DNA of 64,000 nt from Pseudanabaenaceae cyanobacterium SKYG29 (GTDB lineage: Bacteria; Cyanobacteriota; Cyanobacteriia; Pseudanabaenales; Pseudanabaenaceae), in assembly GCA_025055675.1 (NCBI GenBank), contig JANWWT010000006.1, forward strand, positions 58,839 to 122,838, written 5' to 3'. Positions 54,332 through 57,413 of the stretch are shown here, piece after piece. Position 1 is the stretch's first letter; every line of letters begins with the position of its first letter. Under the pieces are notes generated by a model. The model worked only from the letters and a program-made list of their open reading frames with translations. It ran no database searches and was not told the origin of the DNA. The position numbers were made by a program, and so were the translations under genes.

Positions 54332-54715
54332 CTATTTCCAGTTAAGAATTCGGGCAATTTGTTCGGCGAGGTGGATAGCACTAAAGGGTTTAGCAATGAC
54401 CCCTGCCACGTCTAGCTCCTGGTAACGCTTATAGTCTTTGTTACTGACTTTAGCAGTGATGAGAATAACTGGTATGCCTTTTAATTTATCATTTTCCTTT
54501 ATTCTTTTGTAGACGGAAATACCGTCCAAGTGAGGCATGGACACATCTAGTAAAATCACATCAAAAGTAAATGTATTTAGAAAATCTAAACCTTGCTCTC
54601 CTGAATAGGTACTGACTACATTCCAACCCGCCAGTTCTTCCAGGGCGGCTTGAATAATGAGGCACATGTCAGGTTGGTCATCAATCACCAGTACATTCTT
54701 ATTTTTAGGTACCAT
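54332..54715 (-). CDS. Single-domain response regulator
   Basis: A 127-residue CheY-like receiver with no output domain. Acidic pair in VLVIDDQPDMCL, phosphoacceptor Asp in DVILLDVSMPHLDG (about D57), Thr in PVILITAKVSNKD and the conserved Lys in VIAKPFS. It presumably acts through protein contacts. Last gene of a three-gene operon with a MinD-like ATPase (6-base gap) and a TolC-type protein. Confidence 0.9.
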   Translation of the reverse strand: MVPKNKNVLVIDDQPDMCLIIQAALEELAGWNVVSTYSGEQGLDFLNTFTFDVILLDVSMPHLDGISVYKRIKENDKLKGIPVILITAKVSNKDYKRYQELDVAGVIAKPFSAIHLAEQIARILNWK

Positions 54716-54721
54716 ATACCC

Positions 54722-55528
54722 TCAGCGTCGTTGGAATAGATTTTTCAAAAAAGGATTAGCTTCCCCACTGCTAGGTTGGTGAATCTGTTGAGCGATCGCT
54801 TGGTAGGCTTGACTTAAAACATGGTCAGGGTAACGTAAATAGAATAAATCCCGACTTGCCAATTCCATCATTTCTTCGCTGTTGGGCAACAGAGCAGCCA
54901 CTTTCGCTTGATAGGTTTTTTCCACTTGTTCTTTTACTTGTTCTGGTATGAATTTAGCTGGTACACGATTGACTACTAACAGTAGACGATTGACATTCAA
55001 CCGACGGGCAATATCGACAATTACGGCTGTCCCCTGAAAATCTTGCTGGTCAGGGCGCAGTATAACTACTAGGGTATGGGCTAAGCTAAGGGACAGGAGT
55101 GTTTCTTCATTGATGCCAGGGTGAGTATCAATAAACAAATAATCTAATTTCAATTGCTCCCCTACCTTCTTTAAGCCGTCCTGTAGTCGTTTAACATTGT
55201 AACCGTCCCGTAAAATCTTGCTGATTTCCGAAATATCCATACTGGCGGGGATCAGGAGAATTTGCCCCTTTTTTGCCTTGATCGGTGCAGGGGTGACATC
55301 GTAGCTGCTTTCCTGCAGGGTACAGCGATTCCACAAATAGTCATTTAAGGTCTTCTTCACACTTTTAGGGGAAAGGTTGAATAAAATATGAATGCCCGGA
55401 GATTGAATGTCCGTGTCTATGATCCCCACTTTCTGTCCCATCGCCGCTACAGCAGTAGCTACATTAGCGGTGGTGTTAGATTTGCCTGTCCCACCCCGAA
55501 AAGAATGTACTGGTATAATCTTAGTCAT
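54722..55528 (-). CDS. MinD/ParA-like ATPase with atypical Walker A
   Basis: A 268-residue P-loop ATPase. The deviant Walker A reads SFRGGTGKSNTTANVA: the signature Lys of KGGxGK is Arg (R11), while K16 remains. Other motifs are IIDTDIQSPGIHILF (switch I), LFIDTHPGINEETLL (switch II-like, D-T-H-P-G) and VVNRVPAKF. MinD and ParA position cell structures using ATP-driven dimers on membrane or DNA; no C-terminal amphipathic MinD helix is seen. Starts ATG 55528, 4 bases after the TolC stop. Confidence 0.88.
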   Translation of the reverse strand: MTKIIPVHSFRGGTGKSNTTANVATAVAAMGQKVGIIDTDIQSPGIHILFNLSPKSVKKTLNDYLWNRCTLQESSYDVTPAPIKAKKGQILLIPASMDISEISKILRDGYNVKRLQDGLKKVGEQLKLDYLFIDTHPGINEETLLSLSLAHTLVVILRPDQQDFQGTAVIVDIARRLNVNRLLLVVNRVPAKFIPEQVKEQVEKTYQAKVAALLPNSEEMMELASRDLFYLRYPDHVLSQAYQAIAQQIHQPSSGEANPFLKNLFQRR

Positions 55529-55532
55529 AGGT

Positions 55533-57413
55533 TTATGGTGCTGTAGATTGTGCGGTAGCCCCGATCGCTCGTTGCAAAGCGGCAAAAGCGCGGTTGTAGT
55601 CTAAAATAGCACGGCTGAGGTTCACCTGCGCCTGGGTTAACTGAGTCTCCGAAGTGAGGGTTTCAATTTGCGTACCTACTCCTGCCTGGAAGCGGAGACG
55701 AGCTAAACGCAGGGCATTCTCCCCCTGTTCTACCACTAAGCGAGCTGCTTCTACATTTCTGGCACTGGCTTGCAGTTGGGCGTAGGCTTCCCTTACTTCC
55801 CGTTGGATTTGGTTCTTAATTTGTTCTAGGCGTAGGAGAGCGATTTCCTGGGACTTGTCCGCCTGTTCAGCTCTGTTTTTTGCCCTGCCCCAGTCAATTA
55901 AATTCCAGGTTAAATTTACCCCTAGGGCATAACCTGCTCCTAGTCCCCTAGCAGCACTCTCACTCCTACTATCAGTATTAGTAAATACGGTACTAAAGGA
56001 AGCGGATAAATTGAGATTGGGGGAGAGTTCCGCCAGGGCACGGGCTTTTTGTTCACGGAAGAATTGACTCTGCTCTAGTTGTTGCAGCAGTTCCAGGCGG
56101 TTCTGTAAAGCTAACTCGATCGTTTCCGCTAAAGTTTTATCCCAAGTTGCCGCCAAACGGGTCGGGGGATCCGCGGGTTCAGGCAGGACATTAGGGGGCA
56201 AATTGAGTAACTCCGCCAGACGACTAGCAGCTATCTGTACTTGGGACTGGGCCCGTACTAACCTTTGTAAAACGTTCCCCTGTTGCACAGAAGCACTCAG
56301 TTCATCAAATCTAGTGCCCAAACCTGCTTCCTTAAGGGCGGTAGCATCTGACCTACTGCGGTTGGCTTCCTTGAGGGCAGCTTCCTCAATGCGGATTTGT
56401 TCTTTGGCATCCTGCAGTTCGTAATAGGCATTGCTGATATTTAACCGCAAATTCGCCCGAATAATTTTGACTGCCAAATCGGCAATATTGACCTGAATTG
56501 CTGCCGCTTTGACATCTCGTTCCCGCCGCCCAAAACTGGATATGTTGTAGGAGACAGTAAAATCCGCCTGCACTCTGGTTGTGGGAGATGCCCCCCCACC
56601 GATAAGACTTAAAGCCTGACTTTGCTGTTGCTGGGCATTATTCAGTTCTTCTCGAATAGCTTGTAGTTGTTGTTCCCGTTGCATGAAACCGATCGGGTCA
56701 GCAAACTGGTCTGGCGCTGGCTGGGACTGGAGGAAGGAGAGCTGATTATTGAGTTCACCTATCCGTTGTTGGGCAAAGCTGAAATTGCGCAAGCCTTGGG
56801 AGCGACCAACCTGGGCGGCAATATCTTCATCAGCACTGAGAGTACGATTTAGACCTAAGTTAAAATCCAAGCTAGGGAAAAATCCCAGCTTAATTTCCTG
56901 TAAACTTAGTTGCGCCCGTTCTAATTCTTTGCGGGCAATTTTTAATTCCTGACTTTCTGCCTCTCCCCTGGCGATCGCTTCCTCTAGAGTGAAAGGGATC
57001 GTTTCTGGTTTGGCGGAAGCAACCTGAGTAGGTACAGGGTCGGAAGGGGATTTATTAATAATCGTTGGGTCGCTGCCACCCCGTACTATATCTATCTGCA
57101 CTACCTCGATCGGCATAAACTCCCCTGCCAGGATCAAACTTGGTTCGTATACCTCTAACCACCGACTATCAATCTGTTCCTGTAGTCTCTCGTGAGTTAG
57201 CAAAACTTGTGTTGCAGGTTGACTGCCCAGGGGTAGTTGCTCCTTACCTAAGCTCCCTATCTCGGCTCCCACTGGTAAACTCGGCTCGTAGATTGCCTGT
57301 GACCAGCTATCGATTTGCTCCCGCAGAACTAGCCTAGGGAATAACTCTGCTCTTCCAGCTCCCACCCATCCTAGCCAGAAGAGCGACATTCCGGCTGCCC
57401 ACCAACTCCTCAT
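55533..57413 (-). CDS. TolC-family outer-membrane efflux protein
   Basis: A 626-residue trimeric outer-membrane channel. Signal-like start (MSLFWLGWVGAGRAELF), a linker of about 130 residues with a twice-repeated QIDSWSQAIYEPSLPVG/IDSRWLEVYEPSLIL element, then two OEP repeats with long helices (SQELKIARKELERAQLSLQE; LARLRFQAGVGTQIETLTSE). The usual TolC is about 450-500, so the N-terminal linker is an extension. It would export proteins or drugs with unseen inner-membrane partners. First gene of the operon with the MinD-like ATPase and receiver. Confidence 0.9.
   Translation of the reverse strand: MRSWWAAGMSLFWLGWVGAGRAELFPRLVLREQIDSWSQAIYEPSLPVGAEIGSLGKEQLPLGSQPATQVLLTHERLQEQIDSRWLEVYEPSLILAGEFMPIEVVQIDIVRGGSDPTIINKSPSDPVPTQVASAKPETIPFTLEEAIARGEAESQELKIARKELERAQLSLQEIKLGFFPSLDFNLGLNRTLSADEDIAAQVGRSQGLRNFSFAQQRIGELNNQLSFLQSQPAPDQFADPIGFMQREQQLQAIREELNNAQQQQSQALSLIGGGASPTTRVQADFTVSYNISSFGRRERDVKAAAIQVNIADLAVKIIRANLRLNISNAYYELQDAKEQIRIEEAALKEANRSRSDATALKEAGLGTRFDELSASVQQGNVLQRLVRAQSQVQIAASRLAELLNLPPNVLPEPADPPTRLAATWDKTLAETIELALQNRLELLQQLEQSQFFREQKARALAELSPNLNLSASFSTVFTNTDSRSESAARGLGAGYALGVNLTWNLIDWGRAKNRAEQADKSQEIALLRLEQIKNQIQREVREAYAQLQASARNVEAARLVVEQGENALRLARLRFQAGVGTQIETLTSETQLTQAQVNLSRAILDYNRAFAALQRAIGATAQSTAP

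Follow-up and report, generated by a model that had tools for sequence, protein, structure and literature searches.

Genes of the operon

The stretch analysed here (the window) comprises 64,000 nucleotides of contig JANWWT010000006.1 (positions 58,839 to 122,838) from Pseudanabaenaceae cyanobacterium SKYG29, whose genome consists of 2.56 Mb in 18 contigs (G000). On the minus strand of the window lies a compact operon that encodes, in this order, an outer-membrane factor (OMF) of the TolC/OEP family, an ATPase of the MinD/ParA type in which the signature Lys is replaced by Arg (Arg-Walker), and a stand-alone receiver, with spacers of 4 and 6 bases. The first-pass annotation had described these three genes as one operon, and both the coordinates and the Pfam matches bear it out. 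It is probable (about 0.68) that these genes contribute to a type I secretion system of the NHLM/PCAT type, which exports ribosomally synthesized and post-translationally modified peptides (RiPPs): the OMF as its outer-membrane end and the ATPase as a cytoplasmic switch.

The first gene of the operon (55533..57413, minus strand) specifies a 626-aa protein whose OEP domain (Pfam OEP, 166.2 bits; cut-off 22) marks it as a TolC-type OMF, whereas its score of 111.6 bits with TIGR01844, the TolC model for type I secretion, is below the cut-off of 225.15. By sequence comparison, its N-terminal extension (approximately residues 1–130; 57024..57413, minus strand) is lineage-specific and contains two LxEQIDS...YEPSL elements. 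These elements had been rightly seen before, but the extension is less unusual than was then thought, because the EPSL element is not kept in the two other members of the genus and the second OMF of the genome (L132:6649-8352, contig C1) has a similar doubled N-terminal element. The ATPase gene (54722..55528, minus strand) gives a protein of 268 aa from its ATG; an alternative TTG start 57 bases upstream would extend it into the OMF gene, and the ATG is the better candidate, as M1 is shared by all 12 aligned orthologues. The receiver (54332..54715, minus strand) has 127 aa, matches Pfam Response_reg over its curated cut-off (90.4 bits), and contains D12, D13, T87, and K109 in addition to the phospho-acceptor Asp57, presumably the functional residues of a receiver domain. 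Promoter-like and terminator-like sites in the operon region did not exceed shuffle expectation.

An ATPase with Arg at the signature lysine

The ATPase is a SIMIBI P-loop fold member of the MinD/ParA deviant Walker A group that lacks the signature Lys; AAA_31 (66.6 bits), ParA (65.7 bits), and CbiA of Pfam all match it over their curated cut-offs. Its P-loop reads FRGGTGKS, with Arg11 (codon 55496..55498, minus strand) at the signature position. A search of genome contigs matched at least 592 stretches, 578 of which encode a relative, and 79 distinct loci were kept, mostly from Cyanobacteria and Chloroflexota among the matches listed; the distinct sequences from these loci and from fetched regions amount to 154 relatives. 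Given that RGGTGKS is found in 141 of the 154 and a Lys at the signature position in none of them, Arg11, already noticed in the first-pass annotation, is a mark of the family, and the concern that it might be a lone quirk, with Lys in the relatives, is ruled out. The remaining 13 relatives carry further changes within the motif or close to it, some of which clearly break it. Arg11 is invariant in the alignment of 12 orthologues and in another of 41 sequences, from which L071, L074, L087, L095, L105, and L114 were omitted and in which others were shortened; in the latter, K16, D38, D40, and D134, which we take to be the P-loop Lys and the Asp residues of Walker A' and B, are invariant as well. 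Such a consistent exchange of Arg for Lys offers a natural test of the role of the signature lysine.

The AlphaFold2 model of the ATPase, built on the 41-sequence input, has a mean predicted local distance difference test score (pLDDT) of 86.1. Its top match in the PDB is archaeal MinD 1hyq (Z 29.7, root-mean-square deviation 1.9 over 226 residues), followed by other MinD chains (Z 27.5–28.2), FleN (27.1), and FlhG (26.2), with Soj, McdA chains (24.4), and BcsQ chains (approximately 24) also listed, in a list where the absence of a protein carries no weight. In a sequence-profile search, 1hyq was again the best (4.7e-23). In fold and in the retained positions of the catalytic Asp residues, the protein therefore resembles MinD, but it differs in Arg11 and in scoring below the cut-offs of the NCBIfam MinD models TIGR01969 (107.1 bits; cut-off 201.75) and TIGR01968 (67.9 bits; cut-off 212.9), for which reason it is not called MinD here.

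A possible further likeness to MinD lies in the C-terminal tail, NPFLKNLFQRR (54725..54757, minus strand), which is basic and hydrophobic and recalls the membrane-targeting sequence of MinD. A helix is predicted at residues 259–266, following a linker; because its confidence is low (pLDDT under 50) and its hydrophobic moment moderate (0.34, not exceptional within the protein), membrane targeting is taken as a lead. Outside the genus, the four closest relatives have similar tails, namely GGLKKLFGR (L036), GGLGNLFNLSK (L141), VLSKLRWPGR (L142), and VFSKFKWPGR (L143), and the nine other orthologues of the 12-sequence alignment have none. The tail also resembles membrane-targeting sequences as described in excerpts of PMC7439463. 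Together, structure and tail point to a MinD-like membrane ATPase.

Two other ATPases of this type provide useful comparisons. The P-loop of BcsQ probably has an Arg as well. Excerpts of PMC7439463 present BcsQ as a SIMIBI ATPase of the MinD type working for a secretion machine, that of enterobacterial cellulose, which differs from the system proposed here in both machine and substrate, and its identity to the window ATPase is 14%. McdA, the carboxysome-positioning protein, is a ParA-type ATPase of cyanobacteria that likewise lacks the signature Lys, the position being occupied by Ser in Synechococcus elongatus according to a portion of PMC6328274. In contrast to the window ATPase, whose tail suggests a membrane location, McdA is described there as acting on the nucleoid with McdB.

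Linkage of the ATPase and the OMF to peptide exporters

The NHLM/PCAT exporter set consists of a C39-peptidase ATP-binding cassette (ABC) protein (TIGR03796, ABC1), a second ABC protein (TIGR03797, ABC2), an HlyD protein (TIGR03794), and a cyclic-nucleotide-domain protein (TIGR03896, cNMP). The ATPase is present in 8 of the 38 genomes of the family (E ≤ 1e-50), and in six of these eight the OMF gene lies directly upstream of it in the same direction, three belonging to the genus of the window, where the gap is a few bases, and three to another genus, where it is approximately 80 to 125 bases. Adjacent and co-directional pairs also occur in L191 and L192, from two genomes that belong to another family. 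Accordingly, the expected conservation of a tolC–minD–REC order holds for its first two members and fails for the receiver, found in two of the six family loci. In three of the six (L117, L118, and L119), genes for DUF7005, cNMP, HlyD, and C39-ABC proteins adjoin the pair, accompanied by LanM in L117 and L119 and not in the stretch of L118 examined. A C39 domain at E < 1e-30 is found in all six genomes with the pair and in one of the 32 other genomes of the family (G006), a difference with a Fisher value of 2.5e-6 that ignores kinship and depends on a threshold picked after looking.

The association extends across the class, where the ATPase occurs in at least 158 of 388 genomes (E ≤ 1e-60) and TIGR03796 in at least 113 (E ≤ 1e-180), at least 99 of them over its cut-off. 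Among the matches listed, which comprise the best ones and from which the genome lists were transcribed by hand, 77 genomes have both, with an odds ratio of 5.1 uncorrected for kinship or genome size. Positions, also transcribed by hand, could be compared for 76 listed ATPase matches in 55 genomes; 16 of them lie within 12 kb of a TIGR03796 match over its cut-off, against 0.37 expected under random placement with kinship ignored and a maximum of 5 in 200,000 simulation runs. The 12-kb limit was set after the positions had been seen, and a further pair on one contig (G267) is approximately 20 kb apart.

Among fetched regions, 26 loci contain the ATPase together with exporter genes, and eight of the 26 contain an OMF too. 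This is a tally rather than a rate, as regions were partly picked for closeness or linkage, and it includes two weak members, L086 (no HlyD or cNMP match) and L190 (an ABC match alone). The order ATPase–DUF7005–cNMP–HlyD–ABC1–ABC2 recurs on one strand in several families (L183, L186, L201, and L203; with extra genes between in L181 and L182). The ATPase is divergent from the exporter operon in L193, as is the OMF–ATPase pair in L191 and L192; the OMF is on the opposite strand past two further genes in L201 and L203, and OMF and ATPase are convergent in L159. It follows that the proposal of an export context shared by OMF and ATPase has gained substance. No report of a link between the ATPase and such exporters was found in the openly licensed PMC literature searched, and in the excerpts of Haft et al. 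2010 (PMC2887384), the description of NHLM/NHLP export, a term search gave no TolC and no ATPase, the six matches to 'para' being words like paralogous and parallel.

A quick tree of the 141 of 154 ATPase sequences with RGGTGKS and a length of 235–330 groups the window genus with L036 and L141 (support 95), and then with L142 and L143 (90). L036 is a short contig, whereas L142 and L143, which are among the nearest relatives outside the genus with readable context, are exporter-linked. As exporter-linked ATPases appear in several parts of the tree, the link has been either gained repeatedly or often lost.

The OMFs linked to the ATPase are divergent, and two attempts to find an exporter signature in them gave weak results. 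The ATPase-adjacent OMFs, nine distinct proteins, do not form a convincing single clade. Full-length matches to the OMF of L191 are exporter-linked in 6 of 15 cases versus 3 of approximately 140 listed rows (Fisher 2e-5), a tally counted by eye among the best rows, for which all 15 regions had already been fetched; seven of the 15 (L205–L211) best match an L120-type OMF with no exporter seen, so that full-length alignment is a poor sign of an exporter.

The exporter of the window genome

The earlier suggestion to look for partner ABC and membrane-fusion genes proved productive, in that contig C4 of the window genome carries a row of genes for a 402-aa receiver-domain protein (REC402), cNMP, HlyD, ABC1, and ABC2. 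TIGR03794 (338.9 bits), TIGR03796 (1116.3 bits), and TIGR03797 (959.1 bits) match over the NCBIfam cut-offs, and TIGR03896 passes too. The system is that described for NHLM/NHLP export (Haft et al. 2010), complete with NHLP precursors, TIGR03793 being over its cut-off in all three small open reading frames (ORFs) scanned with NCBIfam and a fourth, scanned with Pfam, matching NHase_alpha. Five tandem ORFs of 182–197 aa and of the NHLP-precursor type lie opposite this operon (L133). A second genome of the genus, G002, has the same exporter layout. Other cyanobacteria carry the ATPase, and sometimes an OMF, inside such a cluster, whereas in the window genome both lie outside it, on contig C6.

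Proposed role and alternatives

Since relatives of the ATPase, some of them with a channel, adjoin such exporters elsewhere, the OMF–ATPase pair probably serves a peptide exporter, which in the window genome would be the one on contig C4. In this model, the HlyD adaptor would be the docking site of the OMF, which would provide the outer-membrane exit for the peptide. For the ATPase, we propose ATP binding, dimerisation, and attachment to the inner membrane through the C-terminal tail, and a part in assembling, placing, or gating the exporter; as contact with the OMF itself is impossible, it would act through inner-membrane or cytoplasmic parts. Positioning, the spatial control suggested in the first-pass annotation, is one candidate role of the ATPase beside assembly and gating. 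In the genus of the window, the pair lies apart from the exporter genes, and the receiver would have been added as an input in two species. If this is true, cyanobacterial RiPP exporters include a dedicated outer-membrane channel and a MinD-type ATPase, both so far overlooked, the crossing of the outer membrane by modified peptides in cyanobacteria becomes testable, and type I secretion joins the machines served by MinD-like ATPases.

Several observations weigh against a role in peptide export. The strongest is that the pair and the exporter are not neighbors in any of the three genomes of the genus, combined with the second OMF on contig C1, which could serve the exporter of the window genome instead. 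In G001, ABC1 (L135:5439-7627) reads as two overlapping ORFs and may therefore be broken or misassembled, and no TIGR03796 match was found at E ≤ 1e-180. Upstream of the ATPase gene in L141, the closest relative, lie split CHASE2 genes, and the exporter of that genome is on a different contig; in the tree, no Chloroflexota row is labelled as exporter-linked. Across the class, 60 of the 76 listed ATPase matches are not exporter-linked, and 36 of the 113 genomes with an ABC1 match are without the ATPase at E ≤ 1e-60 among the matches listed, so such exporters can do without the ATPase. The grouping of ATPase-adjacent OMFs has a support of 73/81 with long branches, in a tree that includes the L159 OMF twice under two start calls. 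Lastly, Tll0287-HAMP, CHASE2, and Cache sensors are common neighbors of the ATPase, which fits a more general signalling ATPase.

The separation of pair and exporter on different contigs invites the explanation that, in the genus of the window, OMF and ATPase work with a different transporter, such as an efflux pump or another HlyD–ABC system, the NHLM link having been lost when the pair moved. The genome offers material for this, with five HlyD_D23 matches and a second OMF available to the exporter. However, no partner transporter gene adjoins the pair, the flanking genes on the plus strand being instead a PUCC-family (PUCC/MFS) transporter, whose end abuts that of the receiver gene, and a phosphoketolase; moreover, within the family the pair is confined to genomes with a strong C39 exporter. 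On balance, we regard a different transporter as unlikely. Somewhat less likely still is a general signalling or regulatory function of the ATPase as a MinD-type protein similar to FleN or FlhG, with expression or enzyme activity as its target and co-regulation as the sole cause of its proximity to exporter and channel genes. Consistent with this are the rank of FleN and FlhG among the structural matches and the spread of the family over Cyanobacteria and Chloroflexota with varied neighbors, many of them membrane sensors, but the repeated tight linkage to one exporter gene set would be left unexplained. That the genes are chance neighbors in a compact genome, as the unconserved receiver might suggest, is very improbable and is contradicted by the pair, which recurs both within the family, in two genera, and in a second family. 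Service to a peptide exporter thus remains the preferred explanation for the pair.

Receiver and possible sensory inputs

The first-pass annotation had treated the receiver as a defining part of the apparatus, and this does not stand. Among the six OMF–ATPase loci of the family, it is present in those of G000 and G002 (81% for the G002 orthologue), and it is absent from the three loci outside the genus; in G001, which is 90% complete, it was not found at E ≤ 1e-20, and an aldo/keto reductase gene follows the ATPase gene. It is thus ruled out as a core part, and we take it as a local add-on and a recent input. The genome also contains, at G000:C1:947827-948078, a partial receiver paralogue with 50% identity over residues 44–127.

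In other cyanobacteria, inputs of another kind may be at work. The five genes scanned directly upstream of exporter-linked ATPases (L153, L169, L184, L185, and L188) specify proteins of 335–356 aa, all with a Tll0287-like domain and HAMP, the latter under its cut-off in L169, and no Pfam output domain was found in any of the five. Tll0287-like domains are c-type-heme Cache sensors for which nitric oxide or redox sensing has been proposed, according to excerpts of PMC12889525. Given that these receptors have no Pfam output domain and are encoded directly upstream, the arrangement suggests that the ATPase may be their output. A tentative and rather speculative extension would be that Arg-Walker MinD-type ATPases constitute a broad signalling class, the cyanobacterial members of which might act at the inner membrane in the placement or gating of type I peptide exporters, under the control of output-less sensors such as heme-Cache Tll0287–HAMP receptors or, in the genus of the window, of a receiver. 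The wider survey of domains neighboring the ATPase covered a selection of 24 upstream and 43 downstream genes on the same strand. In loci of Anaerolineales (L039, L051, L053, L056, and others), the ATPase is followed by a recurring block consisting of an unknown protein of approximately 110 aa, one of approximately 690 aa, and often one of approximately 403 aa.

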